The notes beneath the pieces were generated by a model. The model searched no databases, was not told where the DNA came from, and was given only the letters and a program-made list of their open reading frames with translations. The position numbers and the translations under genes are program-made. Shown piece after piece: positions 2,956-33,881 of a stretch of 33,989 nucleotides of DNA. Every line of letters starts with the position of its first letter. Within the stretch, counting starts at the first letter, position 1. Source of the DNA: Gammaproteobacteria bacterium. Its GTDB lineage: Bacteria; Pseudomonadota; Gammaproteobacteria; Beggiatoales; Beggiatoaceae. The stretch is from contig QNES01000026.1 of NCBI GenBank assembly GCA_003645255.1, forward strand, positions 1-33,989. The letters are read 5' to 3'.

Positions 2956-2968
2956 CGAGTTGCCTAAA

Positions 2969-3056
2969 GAAGTAAATATTATGATGTTAAATGGCTACGA
3001 TTCAAACAAAAGGAAGTAAATATTATGATGTTAAATGGCTACGATTCAGACAAAAT
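2969..3056 (+). repeat. 44-bp tandem duplication over a gene start
   Basis: Two copies of a 44-bp unit lie head to tail at 2969-3012 and 3013-3056; the first 36 bases are identical and the last few differ. Each copy contains the same translation start (ATGATGTTAAAT). The upstream copy reads ATG 2981 to TAA 3017-3019, a 12-codon minigene (MMLNGYDSNKRK). The downstream copy supplies the real start at 3025. Confidence 0.9.
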
Positions 3057-3681
3057 GTTTGAATATGAAAATGGTTTTCACATTACATCAACAGAATCTC
3101 GTTTTGGTAAATTTTTAGCTCATTATGAGCTTGACAAGAAAATTATTGAGTTACCAGGGCAAATTGTGGAATGCGGTGTTTTTAAAGGTAATTCATTTTT
3201 TAGGTTAGCTTATTTCAGAAACTTATTAGAAAGTATTAATTCCAGAAAAATTATTGGATTTGATATATTTGGTGAGTTTCCAAAAACTGAGTTTGAAGAT
3301 GATAAAACATATTTGGAACGTTTTGTGACTTCTGCTGGTAAAAACAGTATAGAGATTAAAGAGATGCGTAAAGCATTAAATTATAAAGGCATAAAAAATT
3401 ATGAGTTAATAAAGGGGGATATAAACCAGACTGTGCCAGAATATTGTATCAATAATCCACAGTTGAAAATTTCTTTGTTGCATATAGATACAGACGTTTA
3501 TGAGCCTGCTGTTACTATCCTGGATAACTTTTACGATAAAGTTGTGAGGGGGGGGGTGATTATGTTTGACGACTATGGAACTTTTCCTGGGGAAACTAAA
3601 GCAGTTGATGATTTTTTCGCAAGTTTAAGAATTAATAAATTGTCTATTTCTCACATACCTTCGTATATTATCAAACCATAA
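3025..3681 (+). CDS. TylF/MycF-family O-methyltransferase
   Basis: The product (218 residues) resembles the macrocin/sugar O-methyltransferase family. Seen features: a SAM-binding motif IVECGVFKGNSF, then IIGFDIFGEFP, and a C-terminal HIDTDVYEP and MFDDYG pair whose aspartates correspond to the metal-binding residues of this family. The family transfers a methyl group from SAM to a sugar hydroxyl, so a capping or modifying role on the glycan is likely. The start lies in the second copy of a 44-bp duplication, with GGAAG about 9 bases upstream. Within the gene, 3548-3556 is an uninterrupted run of nine G (codons for Arg-Gly-Gly-Val), very unusual in this AT-rich DNA. A change of one base there would destroy the metal-binding end of the protein. 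It lies 4 bases upstream of the next gene. Confidence 0.8.
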   Translation: MMLNGYDSDKMFEYENGFHITSTESRFGKFLAHYELDKKIIELPGQIVECGVFKGNSFFRLAYFRNLLESINSRKIIGFDIFGEFPKTEFEDDKTYLERFVTSAGKNSIEIKEMRKALNYKGIKNYELIKGDINQTVPEYCINNPQLKISLLHIDTDVYEPAVTILDNFYDKVVRGGVIMFDDYGTFPGETKAVDDFFASLRINKLSISHIPSYIIKP

Positions 3682-6528: not shown

Positions 6529-6557
6529 CAAAAAATAAAAATATTTATGCATATTTA

Positions 6558-6638
6558 AGAACGTGCATAAAATAATTTCTAAAACTCTTCGTTCAAACCT
6601 GACAGGTTTAGTTGTCAATTTTATTTTATGCACGTTCC
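6558..6638. mobile_element. 81-bp MITE-like element, TTA target duplication (copy 1)
   Basis: The ends (A/G)GAACGTGCATAAAATAA are inverted and almost identical. TTA flanks both sides (6555-6557 and 6639-6641). The centre contains AAACCTGACAGGTTT. It has the same length, ends, centre and flanking TTA as the element at 7049-7129. Confidence 0.8.
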
Positions 6639-6709
6639 TTATTCAGTATTTGGATAATAGCTTCACCTAAATCTTTTAAGATTTTATAAAGGGGTTAGAC
6701 TTTAAAGTT

Positions 6710-7631
6710 GTGGCAGATAAATTCACTTATAAACCTCAAAACGAAGCTGGTGAGTTTACGCTGACTCGTCAAGGCGAATTCATGACGATAGAAAACACAC
6801 TCGGTGATTTAATTCCAGCGTTTTTCAGAAATAGCCCTTTAAATAAAAGTTTAAAACCTCAAACGCATCTACTTGAACAGCCTTTATTTCGGGGAATTGT
6901 CGCCGAACTGAATCAGATTGATATTTTTAACCATATTCCAGTGTATAACTTCGAGGTGGAACAACCTAAAAAAGCTTCTTTGATTGAAAGTCAACTTGAT
7001 TTAGAAGAAAATACCAGTAATTTAGCCATTGTTCTCCAAAATATCTTAGGAGTGAGGATTTAATAATTTCCAAAACTTTTGAGCCAAACCTGACAGGTTT
7101 CGTTTCAAATTTTATTGAATTCTCATTCCTTAGCAGATAAAGAGAAAAAAAGACGATTTCTTAATATGTTGACTGATGTTTTACCTTTTTGTGGAAGAAG
7201 TTCGTGTCGAACCCTTTGCCGAAAAGCATTTAGTTATCATCTTAAGAGAGGCGTACTCGACAGTCGATTTACCGATGGCTTTTCTTTCCCAAGGTACTAT
7301 CAATATTATTTCCCTAGTGACCATTTTATATTTTCAAGAAAAACCACTTTTGTTAATTGAAGAACCGGAGAAACATACTTACCCTTATCTGATCTCAAAA
7401 ATGATGGATATGTTAAAAGAAATCTCTAAGCGTAAACAAATCATTATTACCACATACGAGTCTGAAACGGTAAAGTATGCGAATTTAGAAAATATATTTT
7501 TCATTTCTAGAAACCAAGAAGGATTTTCGGTGATTTCAAACATGGCTGAAAAACCTGAGGTTAAAATATTTTTGCAGAGTGATGAAATTGGTATTGAAGA
7601 TTTATACCTAGACAATTTATTAGGAATTTGA
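6710..7631 (+). pseudogene. broken AAA_21-type (RecF/OLD-like) ATPase
   Basis: Three pieces read as one protein. Piece 1 (6710-7048, GTG start in the trace) ends LAIVLQNIL. An 81-bp repeat then introduces a stop. Piece 2 (7133 to about 7190, same frame) reads ADKEKKRRFLNMLTDVLPF. After a +1 slip in a T5 run (7186-7190), piece 3 reads VEEVRVEPFAEK, then a signature LSQGTINI, Walker B LLLIEEPEKHTYPYL, and a D-loop/switch part IIITTYES (intact relatives have TTH). The N-terminal Walker A domain is absent, probably lost near the first 81-bp element. ATPases of this family usually act with a TOPRIM-like nuclease in phage-defence cassettes, and such a remnant follows. At least three lesions make it non-functional. 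Confidence 0.85.
7049..7129. mobile_element. 81-bp MITE-like element inside the ATPase pseudogene (copy 2)
   Basis: The ends GGAGTGAGGATTTAATAA and TTATTGAATTCTCATTCC are inverted with 15 of 18 matches. The flanks are TTA at 7046-7048 and at 7130-7132. The interior matches copy 1, including AAACCTGACAGG. Removing 7049-7132 (84 bases) joins QNIL to ADKEKKRRF in frame, which restores the family sequence, so the insertion event and its TTA duplication are clear. Confidence 0.9.
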
Positions 7632-18441: not shown

Positions 18442-18569
18442 TAACTATTCAGTCTTGAAATAAATGGCAAGGCTGAAAGCTAAAGTCTGCTAAAGCAGAT
18501 TATTCAAATTAGCTGGCTTTAGACGGCAATGCCTAAAGTTCTTCAAGTTTTTCAAGACTAACAACAACT
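18442..18569. mobile_element. inverted-repeat element, TAACTACTCAG family (copy 1)
   Basis: It begins TAACTATTCAGTCTTGAAAT and shares the interior GCTAAAGTCTGCTAAA...AGA and AGCT(G/A)GCTTTAGAC with 27691-27830. The right arm (CTTCAAGTTTTTCAAGACTA) is degraded. The gene-free stretch 18358-19203 holds this copy, a 297-bp element, a 112-bp palindrome and a hairpin; no coding frame is convincing. Confidence 0.75.
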
Positions 18570-26500: not shown

Positions 26501-26568
26501 CTAGTTTGTATCCATCCGGAAACACGCTCAAAGCTTCAGCTTTGGAATTTTTACGGCTGTTTCCAGAG
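26501..26568. repeat. short, degraded copy of the 26783-26902 element
   Basis: TATCCATCCGGAAACACGCT and GGCTGTTTCCAGAG are the two arms; the middle is mostly deleted compared with the full copy. Further single-arm pieces lie at 26706-26728 and 27277-27295. Confidence 0.65.
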
Positions 26569-26782
26569 AATATGATTAAAAGTGCATGGCTGCTATAAAT
26601 TATAGAAATTCAGATAATTCTTTCTAAATGATTTTTCTTCTATATGCCCCATCTATTTTAGACTGCCTGAAGCACCTTAAAATGAAAAAACCATGTACTT
26701 TTAATCACACCCGTTTCCGGATGAACACGAGTTAATAAATGAATTATTTTGACTTTAAAAAAATCTTCTATTTCAATCTATT

Positions 26783-26902
26783 AGCTAGTGTCCATCCGGA
26801 AACACGCCTAAAGCTAAAGCTTTGGACTCCAAGATGTCCATTGTTTGGAATCCCAAGCTGATGCGAAGGGATTTTTACGGGTGTTTCCGGATGGACACTA
26901 GC
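26783..26902. mobile_element. 120-bp element, CCATCCGGAAACAC family
   Basis: The 25-bp ends (AGCTAGTGTCCATCCGGAAA...) are inverted with 23 of 25 matches. The interior contains AAGCTAAAGCTTTGGA and no coding frame. Confidence 0.85.
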
Positions 26903-27318
26903 TAGTGAATAAAATTGGTATTGCAAATAATTCCAATAACTTTCCTCAATATAAAAAGTATTAAACCAAATACAGCCAACAAAAATTATTTATATTACAA
27001 ATACTTACAAAGCTTTATTAAGGAACAAGTCTAATAGGTTACTGAAAATATTGAACCACGAAACGTGAGTGAATAATTGTTAATAGTTAATGCTCAATAG
27101 AGTTGTCCGAAAATAAGGGTTTTGTGAATCTAACTATTTGTTTTTATTAGCTAAAATTTTATTGACGGACAAGTCTAATGTTTAACGGGGTAATTTCACC
27201 ATTGACAATTAAGTTTAAAAATCCCAAAGCTTAAGATTCTAAATGGCATTTTAGAATCCAAAGCTTTAGCTTTTTCAGTGTTTCCGAATACTAACTGTAG
27301 CCATTAACTATTAAGAAT

Positions 27319-27693
27319 ATGGATATTATTTACTTAAAAGCATTAAAAATTGATACCATCATTGGTATTTTTGATTGGGAACGCCAAATTAAACAAACAG
27401 TTATATTAGATTTAGAAATGGCAACCGATATTCGTCAAGCTGCTTCCACCGATAAGATTGAAGATACACTTAATTATAAAGCGGTGGCTAAACGCTTGAT
27501 GGATTTTGTTCAAAATAGTGAATTTCAACTAGTAGAAACACTGGCAGAACGTATTTCGGAAATCATATTAACTGAATTTTCAGTTCCTTGGATACGTTTA
27601 CAATTAAACAAACCAGGAGCAATACGTGGAGCGCAAGAGGTTGGCATTATTATTGAGCGGGGGAAAAAACCGGATAATGGTCAGAAATTCTAA
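27319..27693 (+). CDS. folB: dihydroneopterin aldolase
   Basis: The 124-residue protein is a complete FolB: GIFDWERQIKQTVILDLEM (Glu21), LNYKAVAKRL (Tyr53), VETLAERIS (Glu73) and LNKPGAIRGAQEVGIIIER with catalytic Lys98. It cleaves 7,8-dihydroneopterin to 6-hydroxymethyl-dihydropterin and glycolaldehyde in folate synthesis, in the cytoplasm, as an oligomer. The start is ATG 27319 without a strong ribosome-binding site. No other folate gene is near; it stands alone. Its TAA stop (27691-27693) is also the first three bases of an inverted-repeat element, so the C-terminus (ERGKKPDNGQKF) may have been reshaped by the insertion. Confidence 0.95.
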   Translation: MDIIYLKALKIDTIIGIFDWERQIKQTVILDLEMATDIRQAASTDKIEDTLNYKAVAKRLMDFVQNSEFQLVETLAERISEIILTEFSVPWIRLQLNKPGAIRGAQEVGIIIERGKKPDNGQKF

Positions 27694-27830
27694 CTACTCA
27701 GCCTTGAAATAAATTTCAAGGCTAAAAGCTAAAGTCTGCTAAAACAGACTTCAATCCGATTGACTAAATTAGCTAGCTTTAGACAGCGATAACTTTCAAC
27801 CTTGAAACAAATTTCAAGGCTGAGTAGTTA
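27691..27830. mobile_element. 140-bp element, TAACTACTCAG family (copy 2)
   Basis: It runs from TAACTACTCAGCCTTGAAAT to AAGGCTGAGTAGTTA with well-kept inverted ends. It begins inside the folB stop codon, and its last TTA is the left flank of the next element. Confidence 0.85.
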
Positions 27831-27951
27831 GGAATGTGCCTGAAATAACTAGGGTAATCCTTCGATCTTGCTCCTACGTCAATTGAGATATCGTAGAGCT
27901 CATCCACTGTGGTTACCTTTTAAGTTATCGAAGTTATTTCAGGCACGTTCC
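27831..27951. mobile_element. 121-bp element with TTA flanks, related ends to the 81-bp family
   Basis: The ends GGAATGTGCCTGAAATAACT and AGTTATTTCAGGCACGTTCC are inverted. TTA flanks it at 27828-27830 and 27952-27954. The outer nine bases match the 81-bp elements but the interior differs. The gap 27694-28275 holds this and the previous element, plus about 240 bases with only a possible promoter. Confidence 0.85.
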
Positions 27952-28215
27952 TTACCAGAAGTTATTAAATCATCATTCCTTATAATAAGGATAGTTTTTG
28001 AAAATAGACATTATACCGATTTAATTTATACTTTAAACGGCTGAAATTTGGATTTTTATGTAGGGTGGTTTCGAGGTTTCCGTGAAAAGTCTTTTTTTGC
28101 CCACCAACCGTTAAAAAAAAGTCCAAAATTTACCCGTTAGTAGTATAAGAGCTTAATTTCATTAGTTTACAAAAGTTGGAATTTTAAGTAAATCAATGGG
28201 TTACATTAAAATTAG

Positions 28216-29378: not shown

Positions 29379-29513
29379 ATATTATAATGATGAGATTTGC
29401 TTTATGCGGGTATTTTTGCCGACACCCTTCATATTCCTGCAAAAGTAGTGAACAGTTTGTTTACTATAGACGTTCAGAAAAATAATTTCACATTAAAAAC
29501 CTGTCTTGGATAC

Positions 29514-29643
29514 CAATACCTTCGCCAAATTCTAAAAAACGTCAATTTAGAGCATTCGTAAATTTTTAACTTATTAATTTTACTAAAAATAAAAATCAGT
29601 ATTTTTTTAAAGTGGCTAAATTTTTAAATTGGCGAAGGTATTG
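29514..29643. mobile_element. 130-bp element, CAATACCTTCGCC family (copy A)
   Basis: It runs from CAATACCTTCGCCAAATT to AAATTGGCGAAGGTATTG, exactly 130 bp. The six-base flanks are GGATAC and GAATAG (four of six match). Its interior is in the opposite orientation to copies C and D. Confidence 0.85.
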
Positions 29644-29654
29644 GAATAGCGGCC

Positions 29655-29812
29655 ACTCGATGATCAAGTTTTTGATGTTATTTGGCTTTAAGATGACCTA
29701 TTTTTAGGGCCTAAAATAGGTAACTTATTGATTTTCAAGCTAATTTATTTTTAGCCCCTAACATAATATTTATTTTAAAATCAATCACTTACAAAAAACT
29801 TGATCATTGAGT
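29655..29812. mobile_element. 158-bp element, ATCAAGTTTTT family (copy 2)
   Basis: The ends ACTCGATGATCAAGTTTTT and AAAAACTTGATCATTGAGT are inverted with 18 of 19 matches. The interior corresponds to 24108-24263. It ends 6 bases before the stop codon of the next gene on the minus strand. Confidence 0.85.
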
Positions 29813-31019: not shown

Positions 31020-31149
31020 CAATAGCTTCGCCAATTTAAAATTTTAGCCAATTTCCAAAAAATACTAATTTTTATTTTTAGTGAAATCAATAAGTTAAAA
31101 ATTAACAGCTGCTCGAAATTGACGGTTTTTACAATTTGGCGAGGTATTG
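31020..31149. mobile_element. 130-bp element, CAATACCTTCGCC family (copy C)
   Basis: It runs from CAATAGCTTCGCCAATTT to CAATTTGGCGAGGTATTG, exactly 130 bp, flanked on both sides by ATTAAT (31014-31019 and 31150-31155). The orientation is opposite to copy B, 45 bases upstream. Confidence 0.85.
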
Positions 31150-32973: not shown

Positions 32974-33126
32974 AACTACTCAGCCTTAAAATAAATTTCT
33001 AGATTGAATGCCAAAGTATCCAAAAGGAGACTTCAATTCAAATGACTGAGTTAGCGAAATTTTAACTGAATTTAGCTAGCTTGAACTGTCTTAGCTTTGA
33101 AATTTATTTCAAGACTGAGTAATTAC
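32974..33126. mobile_element. TAACTACTCAG-family element (copy 3)
   Basis: The left end AACTACTCAGCCTTAAAAT and right end TTTCAAGACTGAGTAATTA are inverted. The interior is diverged. It starts 38 bases upstream of the rpsT start, within the rpsT promoter region. The rest of the window (32936-33989) holds only repeats; the 70-codon minus-strand frame at 33185-33397 crosses two of them and is not credible. Confidence 0.75.
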
Positions 33127-33142
33127 TAAATATGTATAAATG

Positions 33143-33384: not shown

Positions 33385-33541
33385 TTGTACAGGACATTTT
33401 TAAATTTTAGAATTTTTCCGCAATGAGTTTATTGACCTTATTGATGTTTTATTCTGAATAATTTTAAAATTCTGTCAATTCTGATTCAAACCATTAAAAA
33501 TGATTGAAATCAACAACTTAAATAAAAAATGTCCTGTACAA
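33385..33541. mobile_element. 157-bp element with TTGTACAGGACATTTTT ends
   Basis: The 17-bp ends TTGTACAGGACATTTTT and AAAAATGTCCTGTACAA are perfectly inverted. The right end abuts the following 130-bp element directly. Confidence 0.85.
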
Positions 33542-33671
33542 CAATACCTTCGCCAATTTTAAATTTTCGCTATTTCCAAAAAATACTGATTTTTATTTTT
33601 AGTAAAATCAATAAGTTAAAAATTTAGAACCGCTCGAAATTTACGATTTTTACAATTTGGCGAAGGTATTG
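33542..33671. mobile_element. 130-bp element, CAATACCTTCGCC family (copy D)
   Basis: It runs from CAATACCTTCGCCAATTT to CAATTTGGCGAAGGTATTG, exactly 130 bp, flanked by GTACAA at 33536-33541 and 33672-33677. The left GTACAA is the tip of the previous element, so D inserted into that tip. Confidence 0.9.
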
Positions 33672-33881
33672 GTACAAGTCAATATTTAAAAACTTATTAA
33701 AAATTTTTGAAAATTTGATATTATTAAGAATATGATATAGTTATTTCAGATAAATAAGTGCTAAATAAAAACTTGTGTAAAATCATATAGTTATAAATAT
33801 GCACCCATTTTTGTTCTGTACGAAGAAAAGATTCTTTAAAAAAGCTTGACATTATTAAGGAAATGATAAGTAGGTAGACAT

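Follow-up and report, generated by a model that had tools for sequence, protein, structure and literature searches.

Short gene-less elements with inverted repeats that interrupt genes have been reported from the giant sulfur bacterium Candidatus Thiomargarita nelsonii, in which MITEs lie in hupL and dsrA (PMC4853749). The hupL MITE is flanked by direct repeats of 10 bp and the dsrA MITE by TATAG, a parental element was not found there and ISAzo13 was not named as a parent (PMC4853749). Duplications of 3 bp are made by ISAzo13 and by its eukaryotic relative Zator (PMC10045372), which has a transposase of a related superfamily and is likened to our elements by description, not by sequence. Here we describe three elements in a 33,989-bp stretch of contig QNES01000026.1 (the window) from a gammaproteobacterium of the Beggiatoaceae, a relative of the giant sulfur bacteria. 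As in T. nelsonii, they are short, gene-less and bounded by inverted repeats, and one of them interrupts a gene. They share inverted ends and a 3-bp TTA/TAA duplication with the ISAzo13 family (PF07592/NF033519) but, being gene-less and 81-121 bp long without a transposase gene, they are not themselves ISAzo13 insertion sequences. The features of the window are:

6558..6638, + strand: 81-bp type A MITE, with TTA at 6555-6557 and 6639-6641
6690..7631, + strand: AAA-ATPase pseudogene (AAA_21/AAA_15, HEC-01A-like), split by the MITE at 7049; start approximate
7046..7048, no strand: left copy of the TTA target duplication (a single TTA codon in the G029 homologue)
7049..7129, + strand: 81-bp type C MITE, ends GGAGTGAGGATTTAATAA / GGAATGAGAATTCAATAA
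7130..7132, no strand: right copy of the TTA target duplication
7186..7190, + strand: T5 run where the intact homologue has T4; shifts the frame by one base, unless it is an assembly error
27831..27951, + strand: 121-bp type A MITE, with TTA at 27828-27830 and 27952-27954
27962..27979, - strand: solo type C end (GGAATGATGATTTAATAA), then TTA, beside the 27831 element

Joining the flanks of the copy at 7049 yields a protein reading ...SNLAIVLQNIL followed by ADKEKKRRF. Another genome in the family (G029, L306) encodes an uninterrupted 383-aa homologue that reads ...SNLAIVLKNIL followed by VDKDKRRQF, with one TTA codon at the site. The window sequence and this single TTA bear out the ends, the 81-bp length and the TTA duplication assigned to the element in a preliminary description of this DNA, which also advised looking for empty sites in relatives; the G029 homologue is such an unoccupied site. 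The insert is not part of an intact protein, the intact homologue lacking the 81 bp. This evidence bears on an unoccupied site in a relative, in a gene approximately 54% identical at the protein level, and not on an excision event itself; the ATPase gene is absent from the same-genus genomes. The proposal that exact excision restores the reading frame stands for the junction, which is mended, but not for the gene as a whole, because the T5 run at 7186-7190 shifts the frame relative to T4 in G029 and the N-terminal part is missing, homology beginning at about 6690, just downstream of the 81-bp element at 6558. Removal of the insert thus restores the frame only locally and leaves the gene broken. 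The T5 run is either a true mutation or an assembly error. The segment 6690-7700, comprising the ATPase and a broken frame after it, corresponds to an intact two-gene pair in G029 (L306:1189-2853). Since the ATPase of that pair resembles HEC-01A/AriA and its second member is weakly similar to the HEC-01B/AriB models, the segment may be what is left of a phage-defence pair.

The two other copies given in the preliminary description, 81 bp at 6558-6638 and 121 bp at 27831-27951, are present with TTA on both sides of each, but the common set of ends that it assumed for all three copies gives way to two types of terminal inverted repeats, which match two different ISAzo13 lineages (see below). The copies at 6558 and 27831 have ends of type A (GGAAYGTGCNTRAAATAA). 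The GGAAYGTGC ends ascribed to the copy at 7049 are absent from it; its ends, GGAGTGAGGATTTAATAA and GGAATGAGAATTCAATAA, belong to a separate type, type C (GGAATGAGGATTTWATAA; GGANTGAGGATTTNATAA). Despite their different ends, the copies at 7049 and 6558 are approximately 75% alike over their whole length.

Other repeats occur in the window. Palindromic repeats with ends TAACTACTCAGCCTTGAAAT / ATTTCAAGGCTGAGTAGTTA are present in several copies (27690-27831, 18443-18531 and 32974-33141), one of which abuts the MITE at 27831. A longer repeat is dispersed in both orientations at 29511-29691, 31036-31142 and 33494-33674, its copies being about 80% alike, and repeats with GTGTTTCCGGATGGACAC, in inverted and direct copies at 26501-26546 and 26782-26904, may represent another small element. 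At 2966-3053, where the gene at 3025-3681 starts, a 44-bp sequence is duplicated in tandem, its two copies being 95% alike.

When the 4.4-Mb genome of the organism was searched with the type A pattern GGAAYGTGCNNRAAATAA, allowing up to 2 mismatches, at least 170 ends were found compared to 9 for a reversed-pattern control, and at least 110 compared to 0 when TWA had to precede the pattern and no more than 1 mismatch was allowed; the repeat family is well beyond chance. Among the matches listed, paired type A copies were mostly 68-205 bp long with varied interiors, and further paired type C MITEs of 75-138 bp were present. Hairpins were predicted for all three window copies (z -3 to -8), the one at 7049 being weaker (z -3.0), and an Rfam search of the window returned zero matches. 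Identical 3-bp flanks were found in 22 of the 27 type A pairs and 14 of the 17 type C pairs listed for this genome (5 and 3 pairs lacked them), as well as in 73 of 81 pairs from other genomes, a set chosen with TTA on one side, so that only the opposite side tests the duplication. Random pairs of places had identical flanks in 2.2% of cases, and TTA/TAA in 0.18%. The identical flanks were nearly all TTA or TAA, ATA and AAA also occurring. The search for ends flanked by TTA elsewhere in the genome, suggested at the outset, thus returned many copies, with the TTA/TAA duplication in the large majority of pairs. Within one subfamily the same element strand is flanked by TTA in some copies (L040 and L055) and by TAA in others (L063 and L080), and Crenothrix copies likewise have either TAA (L156) or TTA (L267), indicating that element and target are not oriented to one another in a fixed way, as expected for two-ended DDE transposition. 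Short and non-coding, with terminal inverted repeats, a target duplication, insertions at many unrelated sites and ends in common with an autonomous element, these repeats have the features of MITEs.

The profiles of the ISAzo13 family (PF07592 and NF033519), for which full elements score far above the family cut-offs, matched four places in the same genome. One contig (C14) carries an intact 1312-bp ISAzo13 element with type C ends, TAA on both sides and a 421-aa transposase (E 1e-134) containing D, D and E motifs, which is the kind of same-ended transposase gene that the preliminary description proposed to look for. A 1312-bp copy in a genome of the same genus (G032), likewise between two TAA, is inserted elsewhere. 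The second match (C118) is a truncated element with type B ends (GGAATGGTCACGAAATAA). Type A elements were represented in this genome by transposase remnants only: the C-terminal remnants on C62 and C270 directly adjoin type A ends, that on C270 being a 304-bp internally deleted element between two TTA. An intact type A element of 1337 bp, with ends inverted at 18 of 18 positions and TTA on both sides, is present in G029. A methanotroph MAG (Methylococcaceae, L173) carries another of 1324 bp with type A ends and TTA/TTA (PF07592, E 6e-98; NF033519, E 6e-120); its third acidic position, which we take to be catalytic from the NPIE motif, is K instead of E, suggesting that this copy may be dead. 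The transposases cluster by end type, with 89% identity between C14 and G032 (type C), 88% between the C62 remnant and G029 (type A) and 77% between C118 and G033, compared to approximately 41-57% between end types for the longer proteins.

Of 28 positions in each end, the copy at 7049 shares 24 and 22 with the C14 element, while shuffled sequences reached at most 18-19 and types A and B at most 18. The ends of the 6558 copy match those of the G029 type A element at 23 and 26 positions, and overall the 6558 and 27831 ends match type A elements at 20-26 of 28. The shared ends and duplications, together with the grouping of transposases by end type, make ISAzo13 elements the probable drivers. 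The insert at 7049-7129 is a MITE, and we consider it very probable that such MITEs are moved by an ISAzo13-family DDE transposase from elsewhere. Since longer elements bounded by these ends code for an ISAzo13 transposase and make a 3-bp duplication, the three window elements are, judging from sequence, putative non-autonomous derivatives of ISAzo13, which agrees with the initial picture of a small element with a TTA duplication that needs its transposase in trans. Two inverted ends enclose a short gene-less hairpin interior; an ISAzo13-family transposase made elsewhere would bind the ends and cut out or copy the element, which would be joined into a TTA or TAA target, repair of the 3-base stagger leaving TTA on both sides. 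Both the action in trans and the cut-and-join chemistry are inferred from the sequences. The C14 element is the most likely present candidate driver of the type C copy at 7049, and the copies at 6558 and 27831 would go with a second ISAzo13 lineage, of which a family member has an intact element and which also occurs in Methylococcaceae.

Two observations speak against C14 as the driver of the 7049 copy. Their ends differ at 4 and 6 of 28 positions, so that the copy could have been driven by a sister of C14 that has since died out, and the interior that the copy at 7049 shares with a type A copy is not accounted for by the C14 element. The mismatched ends would also suit a reading in which the type A and type C MITEs are relics for which this genome has no active driver, the likeness between the 7049 and C14 ends reflecting common descent only, as would the decay of the host gene and the reduction of the genome's own type A transposases to remnants. 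We regard this reading as rather unlikely, since C14 is intact with its D, D and E motifs and an element 89% identical is inserted elsewhere in the genus.

The IS5-group (IS1031/ISL2-like) transposase that the preliminary description had favoured as driver is highly improbable. IS5 relatives are paired with Harbinger elements, which make 3-bp duplications, and four DDE_Tnp_1 matches are present in the genome. The IS5-Harbinger relationship is named in PMC5718144. However, the long elements that combine these ends with a TTA/TAA duplication, in this genome, in relatives and in the Methylococcaceae MAG, encode ISAzo13 and not IS5-group transposases, and a TNA target would exclude the AAA and ATA flanks that are present. 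The sole long type A-like element with an IS4-like gene (L185) has weaker ends and comes from a Methylovulum genome. In our searches, the IS4/IS5-type profiles PF01609 and PF13586 gave four matches and one weak match in this genome, and were set aside as partners after same-ended ISAzo13 elements had come to light; L185, L190, L010 and L039 were rejected as autonomous copies for weaker ends, unrelated genes or unequal flanks; and a match in a viral collection, one unpaired end on a contig of quite different composition, was judged to be chance. Most remote of all is an IS200/IS605-kind palindrome element placed 3' of TTA by an HUH enzyme acting on a single strand, with no real duplication. This reading draws on the TTA at the left side, the hairpins (z -3 to -8) and the palindrome-associated elements of this kind predicted in Thiomargarita (PMC4853749). 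It would require an insertion site in fixed orientation to the element, which is contradicted by same-family copies that have TTA or TAA on one and the same strand, and it conflicts with inverted repeats that extend to the very ends and with intact partners that are DDE elements.

The palindrome AAACCTGACAGGTTT is common to the copies at 6558 and 7049, although their ends belong to different lineages. The palindrome AAACCTGNCAGGTTT occurs in at least 222 copies in the genome (for instance at window positions 6595-6609 and 7086-7100), and this module is found in MITEs with different ends. Among 37 sampled places, about one fifth were enclosed by type C-like ends and a matching TTA/TAA pair; at the rest, the search used revealed no clear ends. 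In a tentative reading that we hold to be doubtful, a single genus has three or more ISAzo13 lineages, each with ends of its own (A, B and C), MITE populations go with two or more of them, and MITEs that share an interior module under different ends may swap ends between these lineages and thereby change drivers.

Type A ends are present in 21 of the 42 genomes of the family. A search with the exact type A pattern retrieved, among the matches listed, Parabeggiatoa and Thiomargarita (Thiotrichaceae), including Candidatus Thiomargarita nelsonii, the Methylococcales Crenothrix, Methylobacter, Methylovulum and Methylomonas, and also Nitrosomonas and Anammoxibacter. Near-identical 99-bp copies with TTA/TAA flanks at several sites in Crenothrix suggest recent movement there. 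A literature search, with subscription papers and ISfinder outside its scope, found no paper on ISAzo13 as a MITE parent; MITEs are familiar as a kind, and an ISAzo13 driver for such elements seems not to have been described before. The abundant short repeats of large sulfur bacteria and methanotrophs thus gain a probable driver, with TTA/TAA as the duplication. The natural pairs of transposases and ends are suited to testing the substrate choice of ISAzo13, and for annotation the MITEs would account for many of the small palindromic repeats, and for some of the broken genes, in these genomes.
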